Shown here: piece after piece, positions 1-64,000 of the stretch
Layout: every line of letters starts with the position of its first letter
Numbering within the stretch: position 1 is the first letter of the stretch
Assembly: GCF_022201045.2 (NCBI RefSeq)
Contig: NC_068558.1
Location: 50,757,501 to 50,821,500 of the forward strand
From: Citrus sinensis
Taxonomy: Eukaryota; Streptophyta; Magnoliopsida; Sapindales; Rutaceae
DNA: 64,000 bases
Direction of reading: 5' to 3'
Made by a program: the position numbers and the translations under genes
Notes under the pieces: generated by a model
Seen by the model: the letters and a program-made list of their open reading frames with translations, nothing else
Databases searched by the model: none
What the model was told of the DNA's origin: nothing

Positions 1-221
1 GCAAAAGACTATGAAACGTGTCGATCTATCATGGGAATATATCATGAACTGGATAAAGCATCTAGCTCTTGCTCTTCTCTGTAGAAACTCCAAATATATC
101 ATGTATGTAGTGTAAACAAAAAGAGACGAGAGCTTTGCAAGCAAAATAAAATAAACAAATAAATATCAAAGGAGGAGCCAACATGAAATTAAATTAATGG
201 ATATATGTAAAATATATATAC

Positions 222-403
222 CCAGCACTACCAAACTCATAGAGCTTGCCACGGCTAGAGAAGATGATAAGAGCAACTTCAGCATCACAAAGCACAGAAA
301 GCTCATAAGCTTTCTTCAGCAAACCATTTCTTCTCTTTGAGAAAGTGACCTGTCTGTTAATCTTGTTCTCTATCCTCTTCAGCTCCACTCTTCCTCTCCC
401 CAT
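222..403 (-). CDS. AGL6: AGL6-like MADS-box transcription factor, exon 1 only (rest off the left edge)
   Basis: This exon encodes a complete MADS DNA-binding and dimerisation domain of the type II (MIKC) class, starting [18 protein letters not shown] and ending [13 protein letters not shown] factors bind CArG boxes in the nucleus as dimers or tetramers. The AGL6/SEP clade acts in floral organ identity and meristem fate. The residues [14 protein letters not shown] fit AGL6 better than SEP3, which usually reads FSNRGKLYEFCSS. The exon runs from the ATG at 403 to a GT donor at 221-220, giving 182 nt (60 codons plus two bases), the usual MIKC exon-1 length. The I, K and C regions must lie left of the window, probably behind a long first intron, so 1-221 is intronic. 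Confident for MIKC MADS; AGL6 rather than SEP is likely, and fits the neighbouring SAP18. Confidence 0.9.
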
Positions 404-577
404 AATTTTTCAGTACACTCACTTTTCTTTTTATTATTATTTGCTTTGCTTTGCACCTAGCTGGATAATATAAGTTATATATAAGTGTATATTATTATTG
501 TTATCATCAACTGATAATATATATTGGTGTTTTGAGTTTGAATGTGTTTAGTTTTGGGGATACATATATATATATAT

Positions 578-614
<37 letters not shown>

Positions 615-985
615 ACAAAAAGGGAGCTGATGATCAACAAGTAGTAGTACTGATTGATGATGGTATATGTAATTCTTTCTTTTGTCTACTGTGTCTGTGA
701 AAGAAGTGGAAGTTGAGACCTGTGGTTGTACATTATATACATCTTGTTTGATTAATTACTTTTACAATAAAATGGAAACAAGTATGCGGGTGTGTATATT
801 CGTTATTCTCTTTTACCATTTTATTTATTAATATCTCTCTGGTAATTGTCCAGCTTCCCTGCGCCTTCATTTTTCTTACCTTAAGCATTAACTTACCCTC
901 CTCACGGAAGCGTGCGTCCACGCTCGCAAATGCAAAAGCATGAGATGAGAAATTCAGATTTTTTCTTTTAAATATTGTTATACAG
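404..985 (-). promoter_or_regulatory. 5' leader and proximal promoter of the AGL6-like gene, with GA and TA microsatellites
   Basis: This is the sequence just upstream of the MADS ATG. It has a TA tract at about 563-580 joined to a GATA/GA tract at 581-614, which reads as a CT-rich stretch on the gene's own strand. CT-rich leaders are common in plant 5' UTRs. No CArG box or clear TATA box could be assigned by eye, so the transcription start is not defined. Confidence 0.4.
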
Positions 986-1576
986 GACGGTTACTGATAT
1001 TACATAAGATATTACAATTAATATTTACAAAAAGATTATACTACTGCGTCCACTCTACTCACATTTCTTGAGGGATAGATTGGCTCCACTCAATTTACTA
1101 ATAGTGAGAGGATAGACAGGTTATACTATTACGTCCACTCTACTCACATATCTTGAGTGATAGACTGGCTCCACTCAATTTATTGATCATGAGGGATGAC
1201 TTACATTTCGTAAGGGATAGACTTACTCCATTCAATTTACTGATCGTGAGGGGATAAACAGATTATACTACTGCATCCACTCTACTCACATATCGTGATG
1301 GATAGACTAACTCCACTCAATTTACTGATCACGAGGGATAGACTGGCTCCACACAATTTACTGATATTACATAAGATATTACAATTAATATTTACAAACA
1401 GATTATACAACTGTGTCCACTCTACTCACATTTTGTGAGTGATAGACTGACTCCACTCAATTATTTGATAATTGAGGAATGAATGAAATTAACCCGCATA
1501 ATATTTTTATGGAAACTCGAACCCTTACACTCAACATTGTAAGTGTAAGAATTCTTCCACTGAACTAAAAGCCCCT
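986..1576 (-). repeat. tRNA-headed SINE-like element with an expanded internal minisatellite
   Basis: On the minus strand, 1576 to about 1500 resembles a tRNA-derived SINE head: an A-box-like TTAGTTCAGTGG and, about 45 bases on, a B-box-like GGGTTCGAGTTTCC. Downstream (1490-990) are degenerate repeats of two alternating motifs, GTGAGTAGAGTGGACGCAG and GAGTGGAGCCAGTCTATCCC, at least five times. A segment beginning ACTGATATTACATAAG occurs at both ends of this body (about 992-1040 and 1360-1408). This arrangement suggests a Pol III retroposon whose body was amplified, or an insertion beside a minisatellite. Family and target duplication were not determined. Confidence 0.5.
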
Positions 1577-3393
1577 TGCTATTTAGAATTATTTTTCAAG
1601 AAAGTAAAAAAAGCACGGAGTGCATCAATATGATATCAGGAAATGCAAATCTTGAATTTGATAATGTATAAAATGATGTAGAGTTACATTTTGATCGTCG
1701 AAGAGACCGTACGATTTTGTCGGATTTGCGTTGTACTGGATGGATGGAGCTCTTGCTGTTGGTGGGCACTCTATATGGGGTCCTCCTATCCTATTGCGCT
1801 GCGCAGATCTAATATTAATGGTTGCAAATTTGCAATTTCCAATCAACTTTTATGCTTTTATTCTTATTGAACCCATCAGGTCACATGCCGTGACTTGATC
1901 AGTTTAAATAATTCAATGCTCCACATTCCAAGTTTTCTTCTTATGCAAAGTTGTTCAGTTGATGACATTATGGTGTTACTTCTCACTCTCTAATCCCATT
2001 AACGATATTAACCTGCAGGAGCTGCAAGAAAAGACTTTTGACTATCAATTTTGATGCATTTTTTGTAATACGAAAATTACGGAAAAAAGTATAGGTTAAA
2101 ACTTGCCTTGGTACGAACATTTGAATAAAAACCAAGAAGATTTCACGTTCAAAGTTCAAACCCTCATTTACACACCTTTTGTGTGTCATATAATATTTAA
2201 TTTGTTACAAGTGTGTGTGTGTGTGTGTTACTCTTAGGATCCATGTGACCTTAAAATTACATGACAATTTTACCCAGCCATAGTCGTGCACGTGAAGCAC
2301 ACCCACTTGAAGTGAGTTTTGAAATAGAGGTTGATATTTAAAGAAACTGGAAAAGAGCAGACTGAGAATTCGTATTCCGTATGTTTATCATCATAGTTGG
2401 CTTGCTAATTCTGATATGCTCAGCTGTAGACTCTACTCACGAATGAATTGAGGCAAAGGGAAGAGTAGTTAAAGCTAGCGTGCTGTGCAGTGATAGCTGT
2501 TTCCTCCTTTTGATTTGAAAATTTCCTTTCATGCCATATTGTTAACAATTGCTTTAACTTGATCTACAAGTCAACAAGCAACTTATAGTCCACGGCCTAG
2601 AATTATGTGATCCTTTTTTCTTTTTTTTTGTATGTAAGAAGAAAATATTTGATCAGTTGCAGATTCTACAAAGCACTTTGTGCATGCAACAATTTTGGAA
2701 GCGAAAACATGATCTGTCACCTCCAAACCTTTGAACCAAACACATCACCCACCAAAAAATTTAGTTTACTAATTCTATTTATGAAGTAACAATTTCATTT
2801 TATTGTTGAAGCGTAGTTGGCGAGAATCATGAGCTGAATAGTGCTAAGTTTTTTTTTTTAATAATATGCGTGTGTTTGTAATAATCTATGGTTAAGATTC
2901 GACTATATATTAATTATTAATTATTTATTAACTATCAATCGCAATATTATTAAAAAAAAACTCAATTTAACACAAAATCTTAATCCAATTGGTGAATGGA
3001 TTGAGTTTCAGCATCATATATCATCATGAAATGTGCTGATTGCATGTTAAATAATCCATCAAACAGTCAATTTTTCTTACTATCTTTCTCCTCTGTGATG
3101 ATTTTATGCAGGAATTGGGATAATGAAAACATGGCATTATTTTATATTGAGTTCGAAAATCCACATTTTATATGTTAACACAATGGGTAATATATAGATT
3201 TCAATGTCCACCTTTTTTTTTCGGGGGGGGGGGGGGGGGGGTTTTTGGGGTTGAGGTTTAGATTTCTTGCATGTGGGATGAGTTTTATTAGGAAAAAAAA
3301 TTTGTTGTTCCGTAACCTTGAGAATTACAAATATGATTAATCGCTGGTGTTGCAAAGGTGCCAGCATCTCTACTCTTTGATATATATAATTAA
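1577..3393. other. intergenic, no gene recognised
   Basis: AT-rich spacer with short tracts only: a TG run near 2212-2228, a T-rich run near 2613-2629, and a long G homopolymer near 3223-3241 preceded by T. Open frames here are short, lack family resemblance and contain low-complexity translations. Confidence 0.6.
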
Positions 3394-3960
3394 GGGTTAT
3401 TATCATTTTACTACTTTAAAAATTGTCAAATATCAAATGACTACAACAAGTATTGTCTCCTATCATTTTTCTACTATATTTTTATAAAAAAATATAATTT
3501 TACTATTTTTCTGTTATAACCGTTAGTTGACCAGTTAGTTAACTAATAAAATATCAATTTCACCCTTTATGATTAAAAAAAAATTAGTTGAAACTTATTT
3601 ACAAAATAAAATTGTAATATATTTATTAAAATGGATATAAAAAGCCAACATAATTCTTTTTTGCTGGAATTATGAAAATGAAGTTTATTTACAAAATAAA
3701 ATTGTCTTATTATTTTTTTAATGAAGCTTATTTTTTTTAATCATGAAGGGTAAATTTGGTATTTTGTTAGTCAGCTAATTGGTCAACTAACGAGTCAACT
3801 AACGGTTGTAACGGAAAAATAGTAAAATGATATTTGTTATAACGAAAAAGTAATAAAATGATATTTGTATAAAGATATAGTCAGAAAATGATATGAGACA
3901 ATATTTGTTATAATCATTTAATATTTGACAATTTTTGAAGTAGTAAAATGACAATAACCC
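3394..3960. mobile_element. Mutator-type MITE (567 bp) with long terminal inverted repeats and a 9-bp target duplication
   Basis: The element starts GGGTTATTATCATTTTACTA and ends with the near-perfect inverse, TAGTAAAATGACAATAACCC. The inverted arms extend inward well over 100 bp, with mismatches and small indels; both contain the TTAGTTGACCAGTTAGTTAA-like motif. The identical 9-bp sequence TATAATTAA flanks it at 3385-3393 and 3961-3969. Long inverted repeats plus a 9-bp target duplication are the signature of Mutator-like (MULE) non-autonomous elements. It has no coding capacity. The intact target duplication argues for a fairly recent insertion into the AGL6-SAP18 spacer. Confidence 0.85.
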
Positions 3961-3969
3961 TATAATTAA

Positions 3970-6900
3970 TGGGTGTTGAAGTTCAGCTACGGTAGAGCAC
4001 GAATCTCTACATAAAGTAATAAATAATAAATAACGAGTTATAATGAACTTTTTATCATTTATCATTTTGCGTGTGTGGCTTAAATTAACGCTCACTCCAA
4101 TATAGCCACAGCCATAATTAATTATTGCGGCCCGAAATTTGCCGCTCTATTAATGCAATTGGAATTATGATTCAATGTTACGCCCACTTTTCAAGGAGAG
4201 TGCGTAAGTAGCGTGATCTACCGGAAGTCAATAAAGCAATTTATATAATTTCATTCATTCATGATTAAAAAAAAAAAGCAATTTAATTTGTGATACGATC
4301 TGAAGTTCAAAGAGATTAATTAATGTACTTGGGAGTTAATATGGCAAGTTAAATACGAATGTTAAAGTTAAACAAAACACGGTGAAGTACGGTGTTCATA
4401 TGGGCACATTTACGTTTTCCGGCTCTATTAATTCATCGCACTATTTTTTTCGTTTGCATTATTCAAATATTTTGTTGATGTCTTAAGTTATGGGTTACAT
4501 TTGTCAACTCAACCTTTTTCTTTCTAAAAAACTGGGAATGCAATAGAACACATTTGAAATAATGTGAACCTGAAGCACCATATACATTCATGGCTCTATT
4601 TATGCAAGGAAAGCAGCTTGAGAAAAATTAAAAATTATTGTTTTCTAAATTATAATTAAATCGATCTCCAGTAATTAAAAAGAGATAAAAGAGGATGATT
4701 TTGAATGCTAATGTATAGAAAATGACTGCTGTAAAAAGAATCAAGTATCCATCACACTATCTTGAAAATATTTGGAATGAAAAAAGAAAAAAGAAAAAAG
4801 AAATAACCATCACATTCAACTCAAAACTTTGATGAAATAAACCAAATGGGCATGATTAATTTCTTTTTCTTCATAATCTGTTACAATTAATGAATCGATC
4901 AGCCCACTTGCCCACCTTCACCTGATCTCTCGGTTTCTATTAGGTGCTAAGTAAAGCCTGAGAAAAAATAGCAGATAATTAAGAATCCATATTAAGGTAC
5001 CATAAGATTAAACCAAATTTGAGGGAAAAATTAATCACTAATAGCATTATATATCAACTTAGTGTGCAACAATTAACTGTCAGTAAGTCAGATTGCAATT
5101 TTAAGCGAATCCTGATTTCTTGTTTTATGTTGTGTTGAGAATGCTGCCCAAATCAAATATTGCTTGCCCAAGTTTGGGCTCAAGGCAATAGTACGCCATT
5201 GGAGTTCCAATTGAGGCACAAAACATGCTAATTGTTTCCACCATGTGAAACCTCCTCAATCGCCAATCCCATTACCAAAATATTACTACAGTGAGAAGGA
5301 AAATGGGAAAAGCGTTCAAAATTAAAAAAAAAAAAAAAAAGGTAAAGAAAATTGAATAGTCATAAGGGGCCCATAATTTCCAATTTTGAAACTATTTTTC
5401 TAGAGTGGTCCAGCTAACCTTTGAATAATGACCAATTATTATTATCTAATGGTCCAATGCGAGAAGGGTGTTGGTTTCAATCTCACCATTTTTAGAAAGC
5501 CTTGATGGATCCGAGTAAGCTTCTTTAATGGCCATTTTCCATTTGTGGCCTCAGCATTCGCTATCAACTGAGCTTTCAAAGTTTTACCCCTAACCATGAT
5601 GACTTTGTGTCCTTGCAACAACAAAGAGGGAGCAAAGTGTGAACACGGAATCAAAAACTTTATTGAAATTATCTTCTGGTTTCTTTTGCCAAAATAATAA
5701 GCACTTGAATTTTTCCGAAGGTAGTTAGTCAATACTCAATAGTCAGTGAAACTTCTGTATGCATACGAAACGGGTCCAATGCCCTTGCGTGGCACTGCAG
5801 CTCATGTGGGGTGGGCCGCCAGTTCTCAATTATCTTTCAAATGGTCCTAAAGGTGTTTCTCAAGAAGCAATTGACTAATGAATGCGTTTATTTATCTTAT
5901 AGGCCATTTTTGGAATCAGTCACAGTTATTATAAAATAAAAAATTTAATTATAAGATAAAAATTATTAGTGTGCAGTAAATATAATTTTAAAGTGATAAT
6001 TTTGACAAGAATATAAATGATATTATAAGCTTTTTATCATATAAATATGATATCAAATCAACTTAACTTTTAAACTATAGTAACAGATGTTCACCAAATA
6101 CTCTAGTATTGTAAATTTTAAGTTACAACTATCCAACATTAATACCAAACAAGGATGTAACGTAAAGTCTACCAACAACACCATTTGAATTTAAGCGCAA
6201 GTCGTTGTGATGAAAATTATTTAAAAGTTCAACTTCAAATTATATTTCAAATAGTAAAGAGTTAACTCCCAAATAGTTGAATAGAGAAAAATTTTATTCT
6301 ATGCACAAAGACACGTTATCTTTTTCACTTCAACAAGGAGAAAAGAAGGATTAGAAACTGATTAAATTGAGAAATGATACTCATATAAATGCTTATTGTG
6401 TTGAATCACTAGAATATTTTGGAAATATTAATTAAAAAATGATTTAGGATTTCTATTAATGGTATATATATATATATATATCCCCAAGCACCTTCGGGGA
6501 TGAAGAGCCTTTAGATATATATATATATACATACACACACACACACACACACTAATGATTAGAAACTAATTATTTTGTAATCTTGGGGTGAGAATAACTT
6601 TTGTGGTGGCTATCCCATCAACTTAACATGTTGAATTGGTAGGAGAGTGCAATAGTGAAGTGGGTCTCACAATGGATCATAATAGATACTATAGTGAAAC
6701 TCACTTAATTTAATATTTAATAATTAGTGGGTTTCATGTAAACCTACTATTCTGCCACATAACAAAGCATTATTGGGTCCTCCTACAGCTCAGCATGCGA
6801 AGTACGTAGGAGAACCCCATACAATTTGTTTTTTTTTTTTTTTCCTTAAGGGTACCCTCACTTCTAAGCAAACTTTTTCCTTGAGAAAGTTACTTAAGAA

Positions 6901-7700: not shown

Positions 7701-7727
7701 CTAACTACCGCAGAGGTTATTCTGGGC

Positions 7728-7757: not shown

Positions 7758-7907
7758 ACATAAGCCTTAACTCGGATTTATTTAATATTATTTTCTTCCG
7801 AAAATGGTTCTTTATATTTACAAGCTAAATGAGAAGACTTAGCAGAAACATTGTATTAAAAATTAAAAAAATTAAAAAAAAAAAAAACTTCGAGACCTGA
7901 GAGAGGG

Positions 7908-10279
7908 ATGGCGGGAGTAGGAGAAGCGCAAAGAAGACAAGCAGGCAGGAGCAGGCCATTACATCCTTCTGGAAGGGGCCCTCCACCACCGCCTCCTCGC
8001 CCCCGCTTCGAGCCCGTTGATCGCGAGAAGGTTCGTTTTCCAATTTCTTTTGCATACTTTAACAGTTTAGGGTTTCACAACTCAAGACTTTTATATACTT
8101 TATTTTATTATTTTTTTAAATTTTTTTATAGTGTCATTTTCGAAACTTTTAGGATTTCTTAGCCTACAACTTAGTTTTAAGATCATTTGAAGTGTTAATT
8201 GCTACTTGCAACGTTGTTCTGTCACTGAGTGAGTCGGAATAAGACCATATTTTTTGTCTGTTGCGAGAGAAACTATTCATATTGATTTCATTTTCTTATC
8301 CTCTTTCCCTTTTCCAATGCAGACTTGTCCTCTGTTGCTTCGAGTTTTCACTAAGGTACGTCCTGCGTCATGTCTTTATGCATTACCACGGGTTCATCTC
8401 CCAAATTCATATTGCAAGTGGCATCCTGTCTTTAATTGGACTCATCGGCCAAGTGGTTCATTTTCTTTTCCTATGTTCAGCAATGCTTTTTCCTGCCCAA
8501 CAACTCTTGCTTTGCATTCAGCATTCAATATTTCCATATCTTTTACAATGCTTTGAAAGAATCTGGATCTGTGTTTGATTAATTAGTTCGATGCTCTAAT
8601 TTGTGGTTTATTTCTTCTCTAGTTTTATCTTTTGTATTTTATGTCTGATGTCTATTTATTAGATTTTCTAGCTGGTTTGTATATCATTCTCAAGGTAGCA
8701 TAATAGCAGAAAGTTTGATGTTTGACTGCTAGAGGTTTTGTAGTATTCAAAGGAAACACTAAGTGTAAATGAAAGAGGTTATGTGTTGTGCTTGTTGCTA
8801 TTAATAGTTCATTGTTTAAAAAGGTTCTTGGCTTTTTATAATGGCTTTTCAAGTCAGCCTTGGTGTGCTTGTTAAAGCAGTGAGCATTCAATGGTCATTG
8901 AATTCCACATTATCCATTTCTAGAATCTGTGGCACCATGATTGATTGGAGCATATGTCTATGTTCACCTTCTTGTTGGCCGCTAGCTACAGCCTATGAAA
9001 CGAAGACCATTTTTATAAGTTTTCCTTGTACTTTTAAACATTATCTGTGAACTGAAATCATGTGTTTAGTGTGAAATATGTACCCTATGACTCACCCATT
9101 GAAAGTTCTGCAGATTGGGGGGCACCATTCTAGGGAGGATTTTGCAGTCAGAGGCAAGGAACCCAAGGATGAGGTTCAAATTTATACATGGAAGGATGCT
9201 ACTCTTCGTGAACTAACTGATCTGGTATGTTGAACAGTGCATTTCCTTTTTTATTTTTTAGAATTCTATTATGCATATATTTTTATTATCTGTCACTTGG
9301 GCTGCATGGTTGATTGATACTCTATCACAGGTTAAAGAAGTAGCACCGGCTGCAAGAAGAAGGGATGCAAGGCTTTCTTTTGCTTTTGTTTATCCCGATA
9401 AGAATGGTCGTTTTATGGTGAGAGAGGTTAGTCACTCTTCCCTCACTGTTTCTTATTTGGGACATGATCAATCTGCAATGAACTGAACTGTCTGTGAAGC
9501 AATGGCATAGCTTGTTTAATCCTGTTAAATGGTTGAAGGCCAGCTCAAGTTAAGATCTATTAGTTAGCTCTTTTAGGCTACGTTTGGCTGCCGGGATAAA
9601 AGCAGGGCTAGACTAATTTTCAGGATAAGAAAATTTATCCAATCCAAGGCTATGTTTGGCTGTTCGGATTAATAATTTACTCCAACTTTTAGTCTAGATA
9701 TTTTGGGACTTTTTAGTCCCTATTTTTTTGTGGGTTTAGATAGGACTAAATTCATATCATATTTTAAGCCAAATTTGATACCAATAATAAAATTTTATTC
9801 AATAATTTATTTTAACTTGTATTTAATTTACGATTAAATATCAACATTTTAATTCAATAATCTATATATAAACTATTATTTAATATAGGACTGGCTCAGC
9901 AAGGCACATGAACAAAGGATTTTGCCATGGGTAGAATTGTTGCTGAAATATGATGGATATGAGCATATTTGTCATTGCTTATTAGATGGTTGATGTAATG
10001 ATTTGATTTAACTGATTAATTTGTAAATGACAAGTAAAAAAGGATTTTTACTTGGCTTTAAATTCTTCGTTGTTTTTATGAAGGTGGGGAAGACCTTCTC
10101 TTATGAAGGTAGGAGGCAGTTAGATGATGGCAAAATGTTGGCTGAACTTGGCTTTGAGGTATAGCAAACTGCTTTGATCTGCTGTTGATCTTGATTAATT
10201 TGAACTTTGTTCTGTTTATCTCTAACTTAATGTTCCTCGTATGCAGATTGGAGATTACTTGGATGTGGCTATCCTATAA
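7908..10279 (+). CDS. SAP18: SAP18, histone deacetylase complex / ASAP complex subunit
   Basis: Six exons join in frame: 7908-8030, 8323-8355, 9114-9224, 9331-9426, 10084-10158 and 10247-10279 (TAA), giving 156 residues, close to Arabidopsis SAP18 (152). Every exon is a multiple of three (phase 0), with GT-AG borders. The product has a proline-rich N-terminal tail (about 1-40), then the ubiquitin-like SAP18 fold with the family motifs TCPLLLRVFTK, YTWKDATLRELTDLV, FAFVYPDKNGRF and the C-terminal EIGDYLDVAIL. SAP18 bridges Sin3-type deacetylase repressor complexes and the ASAP/PSAP splicing complex in the nucleus. Arabidopsis SAP18 interacts with repressors, including MADS and ERF factors, so its place beside AGL6 is notable but is probably ancestral order, not regulation. 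Intron 4 contains transposon-like sequence. Confidence 0.95.
9576..9890. repeat. probable degraded MITE in SAP18 intron 4
   Basis: The motif GGCTACGTTTGGCTGCCGGG at 9576 recurs as GGCTATGTTTGGCTGTTCGG at 9648, each followed by related sequence. GGC..GTTTGG is a common terminus of plant MITEs of the PIF/Harbinger and hAT groups. No matching inverted end or target duplication was found, so the borders are approximate and the class open. Confidence 0.35.
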
Positions 10280-12386: not shown

Positions 12387-15300
12387 ATGGCGTCGGGGCG
12401 GGGATTATCAGGTATGGGCATCCACAGGAAAAGAGGCGGTGGATCTCGATTGCCTATTGTACTTGTTATTTTCTTCTCAGTTCTTGCGCCGTTGATCTTC
12501 TTTGTTGGCCGAGGGCTTTACACCTCCGCTTCGATTGGTTAGTTCTCTTTAATTAATTAATTACTTCAATTTAATTGTGTATTTTCAGATCTAACTTCTA
12601 TGTCACATTCGTTTGCTCTTAGGTTTTCTGAGAATTGTTTTTGCTTGCTTTTTAGACCTGACCTATTGTTAGTTTTCATTGCATTCTAGAAAATCCTAAT
12701 TTACTAATAGCATTGGTACTTTTCGCCTTTTGGCCGTATATGCTATATATATTTTTCTTGTTACTGAACGCCAACACTATGCATCTAAAAACACCATATT
12801 TACTCCTTGAGTGACTAGAATTCTGTACTTTGCTTGTGTAATCTGGCATCAGATTTTTATCAGTGCACGTTTGAAGTTTATTTATCTCTTCTTTCTATTT
12901 AAAAATTATTGTTGTTACTTGTGCCAGATCAAAATGATATCCCAAGTGGTTCTAGCAAGCAGGTAGCTTGTTGCAACATTTTATGTTATTTTCAATCATT
13001 ATTATTTGGATTAAGAGATTCTGGTTACTCATTTTATCCGAGGGAAAAATTTGGTTGACTGGTGCAGAATGTGCATTGGAGAGAAAAACTGGCACTGCAA
13101 TACATTAAATCCCTACTATCAAAAGATGTAAGTGTGCATTGGTGAAGAGTTTTAGTGACAAGCTATCTGTATTACCTTACAGCAACTGTACTTTTCTATT
13201 ATCAATTAGATTAACTTTGTCGCAACTTGTTTAAACCAATGTTTAGGTCATTGATGTTATCGCAGCCAGCACGGTAGATTTGGGCCCTTTAAGTCTTGAT
13301 TCTCTGAGGAAAAGTAACATGTCTGCTTCATGGAAATTTGTTGGAGCAGAGACTTCTGTAGAGAACAATGCCACTTCTGAGGTTAGCTTGACTTTGATGC
13401 TTTGGTTGAGTATGCATTTAGTTATTGTACAACTTTTGTTGCAAAGGTCTTATCTGCTTAATGTTGCTTACTCACTGTGATAGGACTTAGGGCTAAATTA
13501 GGGCTGACTTTTATTGATTAAATCAAAAGAAAACAAACAATCAATCTTGACCTACAATTCGAGAGGTAGGTCAATCTCTCCCAAAACTCCTAATGGTTCC
13601 TAATACCAGACAAAACTCAACATAAACCCTAAATGACCCCATAATCTCTTATTTATAGCTAAACCCTAATTAATAATAAAGTTACTAAATTGCCCCTGCC
13701 CCTAAAATTACTAAACAGCCCCTGCCCCTTTATATTTGCGCCTAACATAAGTTTTCATGGGTCTAACACACTGATGTCATTGGATTGTGATTGTGTTCAA
13801 AGCCAAACCAAAAAGCTGTACGTATCGAAAAAGAAGCTCCTAAGGGGAAAGGAGACAATATTCTGTCTGGTAACATCTGTCTTTTTGACTATTTGATGTC
13901 GTTGTTGATAGTTTCTTGCTTGCATGCTGATCTGGTTGTCCCCCACAGATGGCCATTCCCAATTGGTTGATACACCTGCAAAGCAATTTCGAAGGGTAGA
14001 TGTTCTTTCTATCTGATGTTGCTTTAATAATCATATGTGCCACTTAAACCTTTTTACTATCTGAAGCTATCCATGATTTCTTCTGAATTGTGAAACTTAT
14101 CTCTGTGAACAGCAATTGAGAGAGAGGAGGCGTGAAAAGCGAGCAGCAGATTTGGTACAACAAGATGATGAAGCAATTGTGAAGCTTGAAAATGCAGCCA
14201 TTGAACGCTCCAAATCTGTGGACTCAGCTGTCCTGGGAAAATACAGCATATGGAGGAAAGAAAACGAGAATGACAACTCTGATTCTACTGTACGGTTGAT
14301 GCGGGATCAGATGATAATGGCAAGGGTGTATCTGAGTATTGCAAAGATGAAGAACAAGCCTGACTTACAGCAAGAGCTACAGTCCCGGCTCAAAGAGAGT
14401 CAGCGTGCTTTGGGAGACACAGCAGCTGATGCTGATTTGCATCACAGGTAGCTGCATTGTAAATTTTGTGTCATTCACTGTGTATTATATATAGTTTGCA
14501 TTTTTCATGCATTCTGGTTCTGCGTGTATTACTTTTGTAGTGTGCCCGAGAAAATCAAATTGATGGGTCAGGTTCTGTCAAAAGCAAGAGAGCAATTATA
14601 CGACTGCAAATTGGTGACCGGAAAGCTGAGAGCCATGCTTCAAACAGCAGATGAGCAAGTTAGGAGCTTAAAGAAACAGAGCACATTCCTGAGTCAGTTG
14701 GCAGCCAAAACAATTCCAAATGGAATCCATTGCATGTCCATGCGCTTGACCATTGAATACTATCTTCTTCCTCCAGAGAAGAGAAAATTCCCTGGAAGTG
14801 AGAATTTGGAGAATCCAAATCTGTATCATTACGCCCTGTTCTCCGATAATGTGTTGGCTGCATCGGTTGTTGTCAACTCCACTATCATGAATGCCAAGGT
14901 ATGTAGACTGCTTATCCTGTTGCACTGTTGTCTTAATGCTCTCCATTAGTGAGTACATCCTTGATTTGTTGCGTTTTATCATTTGCTTAAAGGTCATTTA
15001 ATGCCGAGCTCTCAAACTATTGGGCATAGTTTATGTGCCTTTAATGGAAATTAAGAATTAGCCTTTTAAACTGACCTTAGATGCAATCTTGACAAGAATA
15101 TGCCTCTTGATGATATTGCAGGATTCCTCAAAGCACGTATTCCATCTCGTAACTGATAAACTTAACTTTGGAGCAATGAATATGTGGTTTCTTTTGAATC
15201 CTCCCGGAAAGGCTGCTATTCATGTTGAAAATGTTGATGAATTTAAGTGGCTTAACTCATCCTACTGCCCTGTTCTGCGGCAGCTTGAGTCTGCTTCAAT

Positions 15301-16181
15301 GAAAGAGTATTATTTCAAGGCAGACCATCCAACCACTCTCTCTTCTGGTGCTTCGAATCTGAAGTATAGGAATCCGAAGTATCTTTCAATGCTTAATCAC
15401 TTGAGGTTCTATCTCCCACAGGTCTATCCTAAGTTGAACAAGATCCTGTTTCTTGATGATGATATTGTTGTCCAAAAAGACTTAACCAGATTATGGTCTG
15501 TGGATCTTCAAGGAAAAGTGAATGGGGCGGTGGAAACCTGTGGTGAAAGCTTTCATCGTTTTGACAAGTATCTTAACTTTACCAATCCTCATATTGCACG
15601 AAACTTTGATCCAAATGCTTGTGGGTGGGCATATGGGATGAATATGTTTGATCTGAAGGAGTGGAAAAAGAAGGATATAACTGGCATCTATCACAAGTGG
15701 CAGAACATGGTCGGTAGAATCTTGTATCTTTTTCGCTTACACATATAGCCATTTATACAACCACATAATTTGATGATTCAACTGCTATGGGAAGAATTAG
15801 TTTGGCCTTTGCATTTGTCTTTTGAGTTTAAACATGCTACACATGGATGAGCAATTCGTATCTTCTTATGTTCTTATTTTTCTGTTTCTTCGTTTTTAAT
15901 CTCAGAATGAAGATAGGACACTGTGGAAGCTTGGCACATTGCCTCCAGGGCTGATTACATTTTATAATCTGACACATCCACTTGAGAAGTCATGGCACGT
16001 GCTTGGATTGGGTTACAATCCTAGTGTTGATCGGTCAGAGATAGAAAATGCAGCAGTTGTCCACTATAATGGCAACATGAAACCATGGCTGGAGTTGGCT
16101 ATGACTAAGTATCGGTCATACTGGACCAAATACATTAAGTATGATCATCCCTACCTCCGGAATTGCAATCTAAATGAATAA
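12387..16181 (+). CDS. GAUT1: Galacturonosyltransferase 1, homogalacturonan synthase (GT8 family)
   Basis: Ten coding exons: 12387-12537, 12928-12962, 13068-13127, 13247-13381, 13803-13869, 13949-13995, 14113-14447, 14541-14898, 15122-15709, 15906-16181. They join in frame to about 683 residues (Arabidopsis GAUT1: 673). It is a Golgi type II membrane protein: a short basic cytosolic tail, a membrane anchor at about residues 22-44, a stem with the basic QLRERRREKR segment, a coiled region (ENAAIERSKSVDSAVLGKYS), then the GT8 domain. The metal-binding LFLDDDIVVQ lies near residues 507-516, followed by ETCGESFHRFDKYLNF, WKLGTLPPGLITFY and the C-terminal HYNGNMKPW. GAUT1 adds galacturonic acid from UDP-GalA to homogalacturonan and works in a complex with GAUT7. 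The match runs through almost every segment, so GAUT1 is preferred over GAUT4. The exon-5 acceptor (AG at 13801-13802) is the least certain border. Confidence 0.96.
13478..13768. mobile_element. solo LTR (fossil retrotransposon) in GAUT1 intron 4
   Basis: A 291-bp segment begins TGATAG and ends CTAACA, close to inverse of each other as expected of LTR ends. It is flanked by the 5-bp direct repeat CACTG at 13473-13477 and 13769-13773. A TATA-like TATTTATAG sits near 13650. No internal retrotransposon region is present, so this is the single LTR left after recombination between the two LTRs of an element. The superfamily cannot be told from this. The intact 5-bp flanks suggest a moderate age. 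It occupies most of intron 4 and lies between GT and AG, so it should be removed by splicing. Confidence 0.75.
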
Positions 16182-46718: not shown

Positions 46719-46770
46719 CTCTTCTCTTTTAGAGCCCTTTGTTTATCAAAAAAAAAAAAAACATAATATC

Positions 46771-47457: not shown

Positions 47458-48414
47458 ATGTCCACGTTCGATGCATACGCCCATTTGGGCGTTGTTGACG
47501 ACGGAGACGGCACCTTCCGTCGTAACCGTGAGTTTCCGGGGGCCGAAACGAATCCGGAACCGGTTCCGGGGAACCCCACTGTCAGCAAAGACGTAACTCT
47601 AAACGCTAACAACAGGACAAAGCTGCGTATTTTCAGACCAGTGAAGCTGCCCTCGAACGACAACACAGTCGCTCGTCTTCCTATAATCCTTAAATTTCAT
47701 GGTGGTGGCTTTGTTCTTTACTCAGGCCTTGATATCGTATGTCACCGTACCTGCACACGTTTGGCAAGTGAAATCCCCGCCATTGTTATTTCTGTCGACT
47801 ATCGTCTTGCTCCCGAGCACAGGCTCCCCGCATGTTACGAAGACGCTGTTGAGGCAATCCTCTGGGTGAAGCAGCAAGCTTCGGACCCAGAAGGCGAAGA
47901 ATGGATTACAAATTATGGTGATTTTACCAGATGTTACCTTTATGGCCGCGGTAATGGCGGTAATATTGTTTTTCATGCAGCGTTAAAAGCAATAGAGTTG
48001 TGTTTAGGGCCAGTGAAAATTGCTGGCTTGGTTTTTAACCAACCAATGTTTAGTGGAGTTCGTAGAACGGGAACTGAGATTAAATACGCAGCGGATCAAT
48101 TATTGCCATTGCCTGTATTAGACGCGTTGTGGGAGCTGTCACTGCCAAAAGGGACAGATCGTGACCATCGATTTGCTAATATTTTTATCGATGGACCTCA
48201 CAAGACTAAGCTTAAATCGTTGCCCCGGTGCTTGGTTATCGGGTTTGGTTTTGATCCGATGTTCGATCGGCAGCAAGACTTTGTTCAATTGCTGGCCCTG
48301 AACGGAGTACAAGTTGAAGCACAGTTTGATGATACCGGCTTTCATGCTGTGGATATAGTGGACAAGCGTCGAGGACTTGCCATTTTGAAAATTGTTAAGG
48401 ATTTTATCATTTGA
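47458..48414 (+). CDS. Carboxylesterase-like (plant CXE, HSL family) with the nucleophilic serine replaced
   Basis: A single-exon frame of 318 residues with the whole alpha/beta-hydrolase_3 fold. It is closest to the CXE8/CXE9 type ([58 protein letters not shown]). The oxyanion-hole HGGG is present at 81-84, the catalytic Asp near 266 and His near 296 (GFHAVD). The nucleophile elbow, normally G-x-S-x-G, reads GRGNG (163-167): the serine is Gly165 (codon GGT at 47950-47952). Classical ester hydrolysis should therefore be lost. The frame is otherwise clean, with no stops or indels, so the gene may be kept for a non-enzymatic role, as in the GID1 gibberellin receptor, a non-catalytic member of the same superfamily. 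A receptor role here is speculation. It is tail-to-tail with the intact paralogue at 51926-52957. Confidence 0.92.
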   Translation: MSTFDAYAHLGVVDDGDGTFRRNREFPGAETNPEPVPGNPTVSKDVTLNANNRTKLRIFRPVKLPSNDNTVARLPIILKFHGGGFVLYSGLDIVCHRTCTRLASEIPAIVISVDYRLAPEHRLPACYEDAVEAILWVKQQASDPEGEEWITNYGDFTRCYLYGRGNGGNIVFHAALKAIELCLGPVKIAGLVFNQPMFSGVRRTGTEIKYAADQLLPLPVLDALWELSLPKGTDRDHRFANIFIDGPHKTKLKSLPRCLVIGFGFDPMFDRQQDFVQLLALNGVQVEAQFDDTGFHAVDIVDKRRGLAILKIVKDFII

Positions 48415-49538: not shown

Positions 49539-49541
49539 TAG

Positions 49542-51925: not shown

Positions 51926-52957
51926 TCACAAACTTGGTTTATTTGAAGCTGCAGCTCGAGCATTATTATGTTCAGGCTGACGGGCACATACATCGTTAAC
52001 AAATTCCTGGACAGCCTTGTACAGGGCTTCGGCTTTGGAAGGATCAAACAGCTCACATGCGTGGTAACCATCGTCAAACTGTGGCACCACGTGCACTCCG
52101 CGCGCCTCTAACATTTTTGATAACTCTTTTTGTCTGTCGATCAACGGGTCCCCCTCGCGTCCTCCCACAAAACAACTTGGCAGCCGTCCGATCTTATCGT
52201 TAGTTTCCACACTTGCGATCGGATTGCAATATTCATGATCGCGATCCGCACCCTTCGGCAACGACAGGTCCCACATGAGATCCGTTGCACTCAACGGACA
52301 GAGCTTGTCGTCGATCATTCTTTTCTCCGATTCAGTCCTCTGGACCCCACCGAAAAATGGCTGATTGAGCACGAGCCCTACGATCTTCACCGGCGAAAGA
52401 TGATCAGCATCCAAGTCCAATGCACGTAACCCGGCATGGTAAGCGATGCCGCCGCCAGAGCTGGAGCCCATCAGAAAACACTTGGATAGATCGGCGTAAT
52501 CTCTCAGCCACGGGTCACCAAGAGCCTGGTCGCGGACCCACTGGATGGATTCCATGGCGTCATCAAAGGCTGCAGGAAGGCGGTGTTCGGGGGCGAGACG
52601 GTAATCAACCGACAGGATTAAAGCGGGGATAAAAGCCGCCAGTTGGCAGCACGAGTTGTGAAAAATGAAAGCGTCAGCACTGAACAAAATGTAGCCGCCG
52701 CCATGGAAGTATATAATAAGAGGGAGCTTTGTGTTGGGGGGAATATCCTTGGGTTTAAATAAGCGAAGGAAAGTTTTGTTTTGGGGGTTGAGTGGGACAT
52801 CTTTGGAGAGGGCGAGCTGGTCGGTTATCGATGCCGATGGCGGAACAGTGGGGAATTTGTTGTGTCTCGTGAGTGAGCCGTCCGAGTTGAGGGAGATTTT
52901 GAGTAACTCAAAAGGGTCTACGGAACATTGTATTTGTTCTTCTGCCATTGCCACCAC
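51926..52957 (-). CDS. Carboxylesterase (plant CXE, HSL family), catalytically complete
   Basis: A single-exon gene of 343 residues. Plant CXEs hydrolyse short-chain esters of metabolites and xenobiotics, usually in the cytosol. The oxyanion hole HGGG is at 85-88, the nucleophile Ser166 in GSSSG (164-168), Asp270 in [10 protein letters not shown] and His299 in DGYHACEL, so the triad is complete. [21 protein letters not shown] and [16 protein letters not shown] match the left paralogue and the CXE8/CXE9 type. The start at 52957 (MVAMAEEQ) could instead be the Met at codon 4. The C-terminal tail after VNDVCARQ is unconserved and polar. No intron and no signal peptide. More GC-rich than its surroundings. 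Confidence 0.94.
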
Positions 52958-55159: not shown

Positions 55160-57148
55160 TCACCGCGCTTTCTTCTGGGATTTAAACGGAAAATTGCTCG
55201 GCGGTGATGGTGAAAATTCAAACGGCAAATGAGGTGGCTCAGCCTCACCAGTAAGCATCTCAACAATATCTTTCATTGTAAGTCGCTTGCTTGGCGATCT
55301 TTGTAAACAGAGGAGTGCAATGGTAATGCAAAGCAATGCTTGATCCTTATCCAAGGAATGAATAGAAGGGTCTACAAGATCCAAAAGCTTCCCATTATAA
55401 GCTAATTGCCTAGCCCAAGAAATCAAATTAGCCCTTTCAAACTCAGACATTGGAGATGCTGTTACTTGTAAAGGCCTGCGCCCTGAAATCAGAACCAAAA
55501 TAAGTACACCAAAGCTATAAACATCACATTTCTCCGATAGCAGCCCACCGCCACCATATTCAGGGGCGATGTAACAAACTGTTCCTCTCATACTCGGCGT
55601 GCTGCTAATGCCACCGCTCTTGGGTATATCTCCACTGGCCCAATCTTGGCTACTTCTTCTTCCAGTTCTTAATTCACCACTAAAACCATCAAGCCACCAA
55701 TCAATGCTACCTCTGCTAGTCTTATTCTTCCTCTTCTTTCTCTCTTGCACAACAACTTCCTCATCTTTTTGCCACCACATTTCTCCAACATTACTAGAAT
55801 TCAATCCTCTTTTCTTCTTCTTTTTCGTTAACTCTTCGCAAAACTCTTCCTTCCACCATTCTCTAGGCTTCCTATTCTTTTCCTTCTTCCTAATTCTGTC
55901 CTTCTTCATCTCAAGTTTGGAGCTAGAACCATTATTCTCGGTCGAACTTGGGGATGCAACCCATTCGTTTTTGGGCCTTTCTTTCTTGATCTCACTCCCA
56001 ATCCATTCCATAACATAATCTTTTACTCTCCCTGACTCTGACCCTGCTCCGTTGTCCTGCTTCCACCACCAATCCCGCCTCGAACCACCCTTTTTACAAT
56101 TTCCGTTCAAATCTTTCCCACTCTCAACACTAATCTTATCAAAACAACCTTCCGATGCACTCCCTTTATCAACGCCAACTTCCGGCGACAACGTTACTGT
56201 ATCAGTCTCAGGAGATACCTCAGCATCAAAAACTCTCACTACACAACTCTCCGGCGACCGATCAACACCGTTGCCGCCGCCAGCACTCTCTTCATAGGCA
56301 GTCACCACACTCTCAGTCTCCTCCAAGATCGACCCGTTATCCTCGTTAACATCTCTCTTCTTCACACACTCACCTTCAATCATCAGATCCTCAGTTTTCA
56401 ACCGAGCAAGACCAAAATCTCCAATCTTTGCTTTAAAATCGCCGTCTAATAAAATATTGCTCGGCTTAATATCGCCGTGAATCACCGGCGGTTCACAAGA
56501 ATGATGGAGATACTCGAGACCCTTGGCGATATCAATAGCAATTTCGAATCTTTTATTCCACTCCATTAGTTCTTCACATTTTCGATCCAGTAACGCGTCT
56601 TGTAAGCTCCGGTTCTCCATCAGCTCGTAAATTAAAACGAGTCTGCGACCTCGCCGATCGGAAGCGAAACCTAAGAGGGAAACAATGTGAGGACAGTCTA
56701 ATGACGAGGCCAGCGAGAGCTCGTTGTGGAACTCGCGCTCGCCTTGGAGGGAACCGGAAGAGTCGAGTATTTTCACGGCGAGTGGTTGCGACGACGACGG
56801 AACTACGGCTTTGTAGACGGAGCCGAAGCCGCCGTGGCCGAGCCGGTTTGAAGGAGAAAACGACGCGGTTGCTCGACGTATAAGGTTATAAGAGAACCGT
56901 CGGCAGTGGTTGTGGTTTGGAGACTTTAAGTCCGAGGGAGCCGTACGGTTCCTGTAGAGTTTCCGGTAGGTGAAAATGGTGATGATGATAAGGATGAAAC
57001 AGGTTAGAACAAGGGTTCCGGCGAGTATCGCGGGAAGAAAGTGAGCCTGATGGTTGTGGCGGCGGTGATGGATGACTGGTGGCGCCATCATCGACGGCAT
57101 TGGCAAGGGCGGCGGCAGCGAAACTGAGAATACTGAGCGTGATGGCAT
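55160..57148 (-). CDS. Receptor-like Ser/Thr kinase with a long activation-segment insert (At2g45590 type)
   Basis: An intronless gene of 662 residues. There is no sizeable ectodomain: a short proline-rich N-terminus, a membrane span at about 39-60 (ILAGTLVLTCFILIIITIFT), then a cytosolic kinase. Seen: the glycine loop LGHGGFGSVYKA (about 103-114), the ATP-binding Lys near 126 (AVKIL), the catalytic loop VIHGDIKPSNILLD (HGD instead of HRD, so non-RD), and DFG at about 244-246. GTVCYIAPEY comes only at about 522-531. The roughly 270 residues between DFG and APE are an acidic then lysine/tryptophan-rich insert (RDWWWKQDN, REWWKEEFCEEL, KKKKKRGLN, IDWWLDGFSGEL). The C-lobe is complete, with SEKCDVYSFGVLILVLISGR. 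The ATG at 57148 is the first good start. Ligand and substrate are unknown. Confidence 0.93.
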   Translation of the reverse strand: MPSRSVFSVSLPPPLPMPSMMAPPVIHHRRHNHQAHFLPAILAGTLVLTCFILIIITIFTYRKLYRNRTAPSDLKSPNHNHCRRFSYNLIRRATASFSPSNRLGHGGFGSVYKAVVPSSSQPLAVKILDSSGSLQGEREFHNELSLASSLDCPHIVSLLGFASDRRGRRLVLIYELMENRSLQDALLDRKCEELMEWNKRFEIAIDIAKGLEYLHHSCEPPVIHGDIKPSNILLDGDFKAKIGDFGLARLKTEDLMIEGECVKKRDVNEDNGSILEETESVVTAYEESAGGGNGVDRSPESCVVRVFDAEVSPETDTVTLSPEVGVDKGSASEGCFDKISVESGKDLNGNCKKGGSRRDWWWKQDNGAGSESGRVKDYVMEWIGSEIKKERPKNEWVASPSSTENNGSSSKLEMKKDRIRKKEKNRKPREWWKEEFCEELTKKKKKRGLNSSNVGEMWWQKDEEVVVQERKKRKNKTSRGSIDWWLDGFSGELRTGRRSSQDWASGDIPKSGGISSTPSMRGTVCYIAPEYGGGGLLSEKCDVYSFGVLILVLISGRRPLQVTASPMSEFERANLISWARQLAYNGKLLDLVDPSIHSLDKDQALLCITIALLCLQRSPSKRLTMKDIVEMLTGEAEPPHLPFEFSPSPPSNFPFKSQKKAR

Positions 57149-59331: not shown

Positions 59332-62300
59332 TCACTGCACTGGCTTAGCTCCACCGTTTTCTTGGACGCTATTGACAGGAGTTGTCGTGCCGCTCCTTTT
59401 GCTGGAATGCCCAGTGATGGTTCGGCCCATAAACTTTCCAGCCTTGCTCAAGCCACTGCCGACAGCTCCAAAGCCACTCCCAACAAGTCCAACCCCAGTA
59501 CCAACACCGGCGGTCACAAGCCCAGCACCGGCACCAATACCAGTACCCACCATTCCAACACCAGAGCCCACCAGGGATGCTGCTCCATCTATTGCATCCA
59601 TTGTGCTTCCTATAACTCCTGCTTCCTTCAGTTTCTTCCTTTCTTCTAGGAACCTCTTCTCTTCCTCTAGAGCAGACAACTGCTCCTCCTTGTTAAATTC
59701 ATGATATAGTACCTGAAGTATATATATAAACCAGATAACTCCAGGGTAAAAATAACCAATAAAATACGCTAATACAGAGTAGAGAGAAACAAGAAAAATT
59801 CCACCAGATAGCACCCTGAAAAAGGATTTCACTTTTCAGAAAACAATCTAAAGCTCTGAAGTGAAGATACCACCACAACTCAAACCTCAGAAGTCCACCT
59901 TGTTGTGGGAGACAACTACTAATGGGCAATCGCAAGTCCATCTCTCTAAGAAAGGCCGACACATTTGGCATCATTTAGAAAATTCATTATGCAATCCTTC
60001 CTCACATAAAAAAGTTACAAACAAGACAGCAAACAAGTTCTTATAAAGAATAAAGGATTCATAACACACATACAAGAGAAGAAGTCTATTAGCAAAGAGG
60101 ATTCTCATGAACTGAAAAGCAACAGCATGAAGTAAACCAATATCTAGTTACCAGCATAATGAACGATATAGTATTTACATTGGTATCTAAAACAACCTAC
60201 TTAAAGAGATTAAAGCTATGTTTAGAAGCACCTACCTTTACAGTAATGCTTCCTCTGTCCTTCTTATCTTTTATTTTCAGCATATCAAGTGACGGTAGGA
60301 GTCTCAATTCAGCCTCTTTTGGAGTATCTGCTTCGAGATCAATCAAGGGCAGTTTCACTATTCCCAATCTCTTATCTTGCCCAATGTCCTTATCAAAAAC
60401 CTATTTCAGGAGTAAAGAAACATCATTTGCAGCAAGGGAAACCAACTTTATAGCACTTTTACTCTGCAAGAGTTAATATTACATAAAAAAATATAAAGAC
60501 TCCCGTACCGATGCTAGAGCCACAAACTCATTGTACAACCTGTATCATACAAACTGGTGTGGCATAAGTAGTATTGATTGGATGAAAACACAAAAGAATG
60601 AAAATAAATCACGTGGGCCATGTGTTTTCATCCAACCAATATTGTTATGCCACATCAATTGAAGTTTGTGGCTTTAGAATTACTGAAAAGGAAAAAAAAA
60701 TGATGGATACACACAATGTGTTCAACAAATGGAAAATTTAAGCTCATGCAGATGGAGTTCAGTAGCACAAAAGAATTCAACCCTAGGTAGATGGGCTATG
60801 TTGAAGTTAAAATTGCGTAGCTCTATTTGAAACATGTTCAATTATCACAACTCCCAAATTTTTATACGTATATAATGCAACATGTAGAGGCCACACAACA
60901 GGTCTTACGGTTCAGTCATAGTATTAACAAGCTCTAGCATTATGGACGAACCATCTCAAATCTTCATGACAATTAAAGTATTTGCCCACCAGAAATATAG
61001 ATGCAAATTCGTAGATATTTATAAATGTATATTAGATGCATATTGGACAAAGCGGCACCATATTCAGAATTTAAAATGGGCACCCACTGAGCAGGGAAAA
61101 ACAGCAAGAAAATATAAACCTCAAAGATAAGTGACTGAGTCTCTTTGTCTTCTGCAATCAACTCAAATGTTTGATTCCAAACAGGATTCAGGTTGTTGTC
61201 TACGACATTCGTTTTAACCTTGAATAGCGGCTTGATATGCACAACAGCATATGGATCAGATTTCCCAATCATTTCCATGTTCTTCAAATTATTCGCTTTC
61301 ACTATGGTCACTGCAACCTTCCCCTGAGGTTTAAGCTCTAATTCACTGGATAACAAAAGGAATGTTGTATCAGACTATTTTTCAGAAAAAGAAAACTACT
61401 TAACATCCCTATAATAATACACCAAACATCATGAATATAAATTAAATTAACTACATTGAGGCTTTACCATATGCCAAACAACTCAAAACATTAAGAGGAA
61501 GAATGATTATTTTTTCCTATTTATATCAGGTTAGCCGAAAATAGATCCTCCGAGGTCCAAGCATCAATATGTGAACCAAACACCAGAAAATTAAGGCATA
61601 ATGCAGGCATAAATATGTGAACCAACTCAAAATTCAGAAACTTTTGCCATATTCCAATATTATGTGTGACCAGCAAAAAGTGAGAACAAAAATAGCTGAT
61701 GACAAATTACCTAGTATCCACAGGTATACCGCCAATCGGAACAACAATTCTATGAGGCCACTGAAGCATGTCTGTGATGATTGAATCCACAGTATCCTAA
61801 CAATTGTGACAAAAGCAGAATCACGAATCTGAGTTAAAAAAAGAAAAGAAAAGGAAATATTAAAAATAAAATCAGAAAAATTACAAAGAATATAACTTAC
61901 ATCGATCATATCTGCAATTCCAGGAATGGCTGTCAAGCTTCCACCAACAGCCTTCAGTGTATAGTCAATTCTTGGCTTTGGCTGATTGAATGTACATGAG
62001 AATTAGTCAATTCAGAATATGTATGGAACTTTTCTAATACACCCATTAATTCATATAATTCAGTTCTGTTGTGGATATTGGCTTCTTTGAAAATACAAAT
62101 ACATCAAATACAAAATTTCGTTTCCCAACTTCCCTTTACATTTTAAACAAATTCAAAAGCTTGTCCTTAAAACAAAGGGACATCTGATAAATTGTGGAAA
62201 CAGTCACTAACATTCAAAATACTAACAAGACCATCAACAATATATGAACTTTTTCTGGGACCAGTTATAGTCCAAAGCTAAGATTCGTACAATTGTTGAA

Positions 62301-63595
62301 GAATCAGAGGCATTTGAATATATTAACACATCTTACTACAGTTGTTTTAAATGTACCTCAGAAAGTAGAGCAACAACAACAGCAGAAATGCAGGGTATCT
62401 CTTCAGCAAGTTGGAAGATAACACGTATAACAGTAAAAACTTGAAGATCTTTCAACTGTAGGATAAGGCACCATGGCAACATCCAAATTAATAACCTCTT
62501 GAATGGTATGACTCCAAATACAAAGGAAGGAAAAAAAAACATGATATGACATGAGATAGTCTTCTGTAAAATCAAACACCTACTTGGATGGGTATTGAAG
62601 CAACCATTGCAGCTTCAACACCTAAAATAATGCTTGGATCACCACCCCACCGAAAATCAATATCCATTGTAATTTGACCTTGCTTAAGACTCTGAACACG
62701 GATGCCTGCATAATAAGAAATTATCCAAGCATAAGTGCTTAAGAAGGAACTGACAAGAAAATAAGAAGAGTGGAAACACAACCAGATGACAAAAATATTT
62801 CCATGGGTGAAGTATACCTTCAATCTTGGGTGCCACATTGCCAAGGGACAATTTGCTAAACTTTAAAGAAGTAATACCCGGAGGTCGGTATTCTTCCAGT
62901 AATGGTTCAACAGATTCTTTTATCACCAATTCTGCTGCCTGAAAACAAACACAGACAACGAGGTTGAATTTAACATTTCAGAGATTGAAACAAATTTGCA
63001 TAAGGCAAATCTATTTGCTTTATTCTAATCTCTATTTCTCTCTTTGTTTTCGGTTTCCCTCCTCATTTCAGTTTCGGCATCTTTTCACTAATAAAATTTT
63101 CATTTCTCGCAAGAAATACCTTTTTTGTCGAACAACTAAATAGAACCTGCCAACGCAAACACATAAAATCTACCAACTACAGCACAATATTTTTCCCTAC
63201 CTCCTGTATAACAGTAGAAAAGACAATTTGTTTTAACACCTACAATAAACATGAACATTCAGGTGTTATTATATCATTCATAGAATGGTATCCTGTGATG
63301 TAGGTCCTCCTCATTTTCCTAGCCTTCTTTTGCATAATTTCTCTCATCTTACAATAGTAAAATTCTTACACTTCATTATTGAAAATTAAGGGCTCCAGGG
63401 TACACCAAGTTTGAGGAAGTCGAAAATTTATGAAATAGTCACGAGTCATAACATGCTGACCGGTACAAAAGAGGCTATAAGAATAGCTGAAAGAAGTAAG
63501 CATCTTATTGTACATTTAAATTTCGAGAAAAACCAGAGGCTTACATCTGCAACAAATGGCCATAATTTACTCAATTCCTTGTTCAGCCATTTCAC
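59332..63595 (-). CDS. SMP and C2 domain lipid-binding protein (CLB1/NTMC2T4, synaptotagmin-like), 5' end off the window
   Basis: Nine exons join in frame: 63595-63545, 62938-62818, 62705-62584, 62455-62357, 61981-61901, 61796-61711, 61345-61120, 60400-60236, 59712-59332, giving the last 443 residues. The first exon, with the N-terminal membrane anchor (probably about 60-70 residues), lies beyond 64000. It resembles Arabidopsis At3g61050. The SMP lipid-transfer domain runs from VKWLNKELSKLWPFVAD to MLQWPHRIVVPIGG. One C2 domain follows (VTIVKANNLKNMEMIGKSDP, NNLNPVWNQTFEL, VFDKDIGQDKRLG), with the Asp residues for calcium binding. The tail has LEEEKRFLEERKKLKEAGV, then glycine-rich repeats (GVGMVGTGIGAGAG, GVGLVGSGFGAVGSGLSKAG). 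Such proteins tether the ER to other membranes. A CLB1-type protein was reported to bind the thalianol synthase promoter in Arabidopsis. Phases agree at every junction. Confidence 0.93.
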
Positions 63596-64000
63596 CTGAA
63601 AGAGCCCACAAGTAAGGTGCTATGAGCTACACTTGACACTAAAGCAAATTCTAACAATCAAAATAATTCCAAAAAAAGAGAAAAAGGCATACTTTCATGA
63701 AACATGAAACAGAAAGCAACATAAATAAATAAGAATTAGAGCTTAGATACAATTTTTATTAATTAGTTGTGATGCAAATTGAATTGTCTTAGATACAATT
63801 TTTATAAATTCATTGTGATGCAAATTGAATTGTTCACGAATCTAATAAATCTTTAGGTCATATACCATTTCTTAACATTGACAAAAACATTAGCAAACTA
63901 GCAAAGTGACCTTTTGGAAACAATAGTCATAGTGTCATACAACTGAAGATTATTGCATAATATTGGAAAAAAGGATTCTATGTAGCGCAAAGAAAGAAAG
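63596..64000 (-). other. intron of the SMP-C2 gene, running off the right edge
   Basis: No exon was found here; AT-rich sequence with two copies of TTAGATACAATTTTTAT(T/A)AATT and TTGTGATGCAAATTGAATTG (about 63740-63785 and 63789-63832). The preceding exon must lie outside the window. Confidence 0.6.

Follow-up and report, generated by a model that had tools for sequence, protein, structure and literature searches.

How does one stretch of a Citrus sinensis chromosome come to hold, in a single row, genes that Arabidopsis appears to carry on two chromosomes, and how much of that row is ancestral? The window, by which we mean the whole 64,000-base stretch analysed (C3:50757501-50821500, in a genome of 299,734,781 bases and 11 contigs), was examined together with 100 kb on each side (264 kb in all). 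It carries an AGL6-like MADS gene, SAP18, GAUT1, GA20ox, three HPPR/HPR-like genes, URT1, two carboxylesterase (CXE) genes, a receptor-like kinase and a CLB1-like gene, in this order. An initial annotation had given the same list and order, which gene models and Pfam bear out, and had proposed that the window preserves an ancestral block split between two Arabidopsis segments. Our findings indicate that the window is very probably part of an old eudicot neighbourhood that was fractionated in Arabidopsis, with an inversion on chromosome 3 and the loss of GA20ox. The pattern is real and beyond chance, and it is ordinary, a textbook type of fractionation following known doublings; what is added here is only a probable inversion, a place for GA20ox and a caution about a near-identical twin of part of the region.

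Sixteen chosen markers spread over the 264 kb take strictly decreasing numbers, from At2g45695 to At2g45470, as one moves from URM1 to FLA, in keeping with the proposal that the At2g45 segment matches the genes of the window in order. Nine of these numbers come from excerpts of published papers, that of URT1 (At2g45620) comes from a listing of URT1 papers, and the remaining six are those we assume. In the excerpted gene table of PMC9554558, AT2G45510 is CYP704A2, AT2G45640 SAP18, AT2G45650 AGL6, AT2G45660 AGL20 (SOC1), AT2G45670 LPEAT2, AT2G45680 a TCP gene, AT2G45690 SSE1 (PEX16) and AT2G45695 URM1, after which stands a gene matching AT3G61110 RPS27; other excerpts identify HPPR4 as At2g45630 (PMC6133988), RLCK XI-2 as At2g45590 (PMC9992409), and URM11 and URM12 as At2g45695 and At3g61113 (PMC3899330). 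Collinearity was judged by gene numbers, not alignment; the three HPPR copies were counted once, and the two CXE genes were given their relative order so as to fit. The two CXE numbers are among those assumed. For the ten markers whose numbers do not depend on our assumptions, the full order would arise by chance, in either direction, with a probability of 5.5e-7, a value that is too favourable because marker choice and assignment are taken as given.

The idea that two Arabidopsis sets interleave in the window would hold for content and fails for order. On the side of content, we take CLB1 and GAUT1 to lie on the chromosome 3 side only, which makes the two sets complementary. On the side of order, Arabidopsis gene numbers rise along the chromosome and therefore place the chromosome 3 genes as CLB1 - URM12 - AGL13 - GAUT1 (all but URM12 by assumed numbers), whereas the present genome reads CLB1 - GAUT1 - AGL6 - URM1; the second segment is thus not collinear, with URM12-AGL13-GAUT1 reversed as a unit. 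The excerpt of PMC9554558 puts URM11 on chromosome 2 after AGL6, SOC1, LPEAT2 and PEX16, as in the present genome. One small inversion on chromosome 3 must therefore be added, and this is probably the simplest account of the flipped trio. A simple interleaving, in which both Arabidopsis segments kept the ancestral order without rearrangement, would agree with the strict order of the chromosome 2 markers, and yet we consider it very unlikely: the chromosome 3 order departs from that of the present genome, and the placement of URM11 on chromosome 2 does not.

GA20ox, which could initially be placed in neither Arabidopsis segment, finds its place through other genomes. In tomato, SlAGL6 is Solyc01g093960 (excerpt of PMC5921562) and SlGA20ox4 is Solyc01g093980 (excerpt of PMC10116951), two locus numbers apart. 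In grape, the chromosome 15 locus numbers of AGL6a (VIT_15s0048g01270; PMC6437108), GA20ox (VIT_15s0048g01320; PMC7449092) and two genes annotated GID1L3 (VIT_15s0048g01350 and 01390; PMC3923830), which may be read as CXE relatives, follow the order of the window, so that for the window genes looked up there the expected agreement with grape is found. A grape TCP gene bears the number VIT_15s0048g0115, as printed. A PP2C and a SAUR gene of these grape stretches (PMC10235105) were not used. For poplar the comparison covers one gene, the GA20ox Potri.014G073700 (PMC8087784). Papers disagree in their coordinates for grape chromosome 16, AGL6b being printed at 14.94 Mb and its successor in number, 02340, at 16.47 Mb; we take these to reflect assembly versions and therefore relied on locus numbers.

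The present genome itself contains the same linkage a second time. At C9:2929501-3010900 (2.93-3.01 Mb) lies an old paralogous segment with a SOC1-like gene, a divergent AGL6-like gene (MADS domain 80% identical, model ending QGWL) and a Pfam-matched GA20ox at C9:3009389, which is 68.7% identical to that of the window with a dS of 2.58 and a pS of 0.726, near saturation, and which lies ~24 kb from the AGL6-like gene and ~79 kb from the SOC1-like gene. Together with the other species, this suggests that the linkage predates the duplication from which these segments arose, presumably gamma. GA20ox is therefore most likely an ancestral member of the block that was lost from both Arabidopsis segments, from each of which we presume it to be absent. 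That presumed absence would equally suit a GA20ox that moved into the block within the lineage of the window; however, such a move is most improbable given that only two locus numbers separate GA20ox from AGL6 in tomato, that the grape gene is numbered between AGL6a and the GID1L3 pair, and that a GA20ox with near-saturated dS stands ~24 kb from the AGL6-like gene on C9. A different thought is that selection has kept SOC1, AGL6 and GA20ox together, as a flowering integrator, a floral MADS gene and a gibberellin enzyme feeding the pathway. The trio does persist in two segments of the present genome, with AGL6-GA20ox linkage also in grape and, by the excerpted numbers, in tomato, and near the C9 trio the own-genome searches list none of GAUT1, SAP18, HPR, URT1, CLB1, LPEAT2, PEX16, GET3 or SPX; we nevertheless regard this proposal as a long shot, under which a selected trio would have broken up where Arabidopsis lost GA20ox.

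Protein searches of the own genome scored 70/70 candidates for GAUT1, 35/87 in the run with SAP18, URT1 and CLB1, and 150/163, 110/319 and 43/43 in three other runs. A further segment at C3:6570096-6759076 (6.57-6.76 Mb), in which HPR genes, one SOC1-like gene and one SPX gene stand in mirrored order, is probably another old paralogous segment (HPR exon matches 51-72%; SPX 80% in its longest exon match). Among the matches listed, GAUT1, SAP18, URT1 and CLB1 have no second full copy of close identity: GAUT1 is single copy at this identity, its nearest relatives reaching 69-71% on C8; SAP18 has no other match among those listed; the CLB1-like gene has only weak C2-region matches elsewhere, on C5 and C9; and URT1 has, among the matches listed, two short ones of 43 residues (74% and 77%) at C3:52025470 and C3:52026736. 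The own-genome copies fit one old tripling, and nothing in the searched markers points to a later whole-genome doubling here. As a separate observation, the URT1 matches at C3:52025470-52026867 cover the start of the catalytic part, and the open frames that contain them are 633 and 380 residues long. A candidate second AGL6-SOC1 pair, C4:25041686 with C4:25054008, had been picked out by MADS identity and was dropped, as the K-box at C4:25041686 reads as SEP-like.

In the history that we favour, an old and slowly changing eudicot neighbourhood would have run SPX - URM1 - PEX16 - LPEAT2 - SOC1 - AGL6 - SAP18 - GAUT1 and on through GA20ox, HPPR, URT1, CXE, RLCK XI, CLB1 and BEACH. A whole-genome tripling early in the core eudicots would have copied it, and a doubling in the Arabidopsis lineage would have done so later; we infer the names and dates of both events, presumably gamma and alpha. 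Redundant copies would have been deleted after each doubling, such that chromosome 2 retained most of the genes in their original sequence, chromosome 3 retained CLB1, URM12, AGL13 and GAUT1, a small inversion took in the last three, and GA20ox disappeared from both, the direction of these changes being presumed to be loss. Compared with other pairs of alpha segments, the At2g45 and At3g61 pair (assumed to be such) would be the same in kind: it has AGL6/AGL13, as we take it, and URM11/URM12, by the excerpted numbers, as common anchors, its other genes are presumably on one side only, and the present genome, as outgroup, holds the union. It would stand apart in that GA20ox was seemingly lost from both sides and the chromosome 3 side needs an inversion. 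The window would be a clean worked example of reciprocal gene loss following genome doubling. A probable flip on chromosome 3 and a probable double loss of GA20ox do not show in the Arabidopsis map by itself, and the block can be used as a reference order for the orthology of AGL6/AGL13, GA20ox and HPPR genes.

The neighbourhood also resembles that of AGL6 and SOC1 in other eudicots (At2g45650-45660, by the excerpted table, and grape chromosomes 15 and 16): a SOC1-like gene again lies near AGL6, LPEAT2, PEX16 and URM1 follow in the excerpted Arabidopsis number order, and a pfkB (fructokinase-like) gene at -10099 to -7539 adjoins AGL6, between it and SOC1, much as grape fructokinase-2 (VIT_16s0022g02340) takes the next number after AGL6b (02330). 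It differs in that the present assembly has a near-identical second SOC1-AGL6 copy 1.33 Mb away.

Several points weigh against this history. The chromosome 3 numbers of CLB1 (At3g61050), AGL13 (At3g61120) and GAUT1 (At3g61130) are assumed, as are the At2g numbers taken for BEACH, AAA, Aurora and FLA, and the order evidence consists of gene numbers. Flank models not known to have an At2g45 partner were omitted from the order test: the pfkB, two subtilase and CRM-type genes on the left and the uclacyanin-like and quinone-oxidoreductase-like genes on the right have no known partner in the compared Arabidopsis order, and the genes lying farther out on the left, GET3 and SPX among them, presumably depart from the At2g457 order. 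The TCP gene that lies near AGL6 in Arabidopsis and grape is not among the listed left-flank models, no dedicated search having been made for it. LPEAT2 was scanned by its EF-hand piece only, the acyltransferase domain not being in that piece. Arabidopsis counterparts, most of them presumed one-to-one, were assigned from family membership and location rather than from trees, and the CXE genes, the kinase and most flank genes lay outside the own-genome copy searches. Finally, the 1.33-Mb twin may mean that part of the region is not necessarily stable.

That twin reaches beyond the part of the window it shares, for the likeness covers window positions 1-5229 and the left flank to at least C3:50696595 (at least 60 kb), opposite C3:49366043-49432122, and ends between AGL6 and SAP18. 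In protein searches, exons of AGL6, SOC1, LPEAT2, PEX16, GET3 and SPX each turn up at two places on C3 separated by 1.3306 Mb. GAUT1, SAP18, URT1 and CLB1 have no match listed beside the twin in these searches, the sequence of C3:49436903-49461902 itself not having been examined. The twin may be a real recent duplication or an assembly artefact, and we lean slightly towards the artefact, an unmerged haplotype, in which case the second SOC1-AGL6 copy would be no biological feature. The aligned 5.2 kb differ by 11 mismatches and 8 gap openings, the offsets of the seven marker pairs compared agree within 46 bases, and exon matches in either copy reach similar scores, all of which would suit an assembly error; against it, the right end of the twin runs into different sequence, as in a real duplication. 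Gene counts taken from the present assembly should be treated with caution on account of the doubled SOC1-AGL6 segment.

Other changes bear on whether the window preserves the ancestral block. The interval between URT1 and the carboxylesterases contains a LINE-type retrotransposon that is missing from the initial list. It is bounded by a direct repeat of 11 bases (AACATAATATC, at 40809 and at 46760), so that element and repeats together occupy 40809-46770; its poly-A tract and flanking repeats suggest a rather recent insertion. The three HPPR copies differ from one another by a dS of 1.1-1.3, and their tandem is therefore old. With the insertion, the triplication and the twin, the gene order can be said to have been kept, but the window is not an untouched ancestral block.

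The features of the window are collected in the table. Genes were modelled with a splice-aware gene finder under two settings, models scoring below 8 or 9 being left off the lists, and gene ends are approximate because the settings disagree on some of them and on HPPR copy b, which the stricter setting divides into two models. All ten model proteins scanned against Pfam, HPPR copy c among them, were matched, GAUT1 with the N-terminal part of the protein left out; HPPR copies a and b were matched by exon 2 in a further scan.

Features of the window (positions count from its first base)
Feature	Positions	Strand	Evidence
Window part common with the twin	1..5229		99.5% identity to C3:49426903-49432122; likeness ends at 5229
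AGL6-like exon 1 (MADS domain)	222..403	-	Pfam SRF-TF + K-box on spliced model
SAP18	7908..10279, ends approximate	+	Pfam SAP18 4.9e-43
GAUT1-like galacturonosyltransferase	12387..16181, ends approximate	+	Pfam Glyco_transf_8 3e-85, GAUT_1 1.1e-32
GA20ox, three exons, 372 aa, open frame	20826..22286	-	Pfam 2OG-FeII_Oxy + DIOX_N
HPPR/HPR-like copy a, two exons	25700..27132	-	Pfam 2-Hacid_dh on exon 2
HPPR/HPR-like copy b, two exons	28605..30168	-	Pfam 2-Hacid_dh on exon 2
HPPR/HPR-like copy c, two exons	32648..33832	-	Pfam 2-Hacid_dh
URT1 terminal uridylyltransferase	34568..38700, ends approximate	-	Pfam MTPAP-like_central + PAP_assoc
LINE-type retrotransposon	40820..46760	+	Pfam RVT_1, RVT_3 (RNase-H-like), zf-RVT; poly-A 46748-46761
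Carboxylesterase (CXE) 1, single exon	47458..48414	+	Pfam Abhydrolase_3 2.1e-47
Carboxylesterase (CXE) 2, single exon	51926..52948	-	Pfam Abhydrolase_3 2.6e-50
RLCK-XI-like kinase	55164..57148	-	Split Pkinase (Pfam), long insert
CLB1-like SMP-C2 protein	59332..64000, 5' exons past 64000	-	Pfam SMP_LBD + C2

Only exon 1 of AGL6 falls inside the window, its other exons lying to the left at about -2108 to -3629, and the model combines the MADS domain and K-box with a C-terminal QGWVL, which we take to be typical of AGL6. The GA20ox model is predicted to encode an enzyme of that family from its domains and its LPWKETL and NYYPPCQ motifs, presumably family-typical. URT1 was named by its top PDB match, UTP:RNA uridylyltransferase 1 (E = 9.1e-187), and the two carboxylesterases are 44% identical. 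The kinase carries an insert between subdomains VII and VIII, with a DFG-APE spacing of 281 residues that fits RLCK XI, where an excerpt of PMC9992409 gives an average kinase insert of 276 residues for four Arabidopsis members; in insert length, as compared there, no difference from that family is seen.

Going outward on the left, the remaining AGL6 exons are followed by the pfkB gene, the SOC1-like MADS gene, the EF-hand gene (LPEAT2), a CRM-type gene, two subtilases, PEX16 and URM1, and past URM1 by a GET3-like gene, an SPX gene and others. On the right, the order outward is uclacyanin-like, BEACH, CYP704-like P450s, quinone-oxidoreductase-like, AAA ATPase, Aurora-like kinase, a fasciclin protein and others. 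All ten flank proteins scanned were matched by Pfam (MADS with K-box, PfkB, EF-hand, Pex16, Urm1, Beach, p450, AAA, Pkinase and Fasciclin), while the finer names and the remaining flank genes come from reading of the sequences. A 4.3 kb stretch at C3:18072387-18076698 is 94% identical to part of the left flank and contains PEX16 exon matches; it is putatively a younger copy of PEX16, or of part of that gene.

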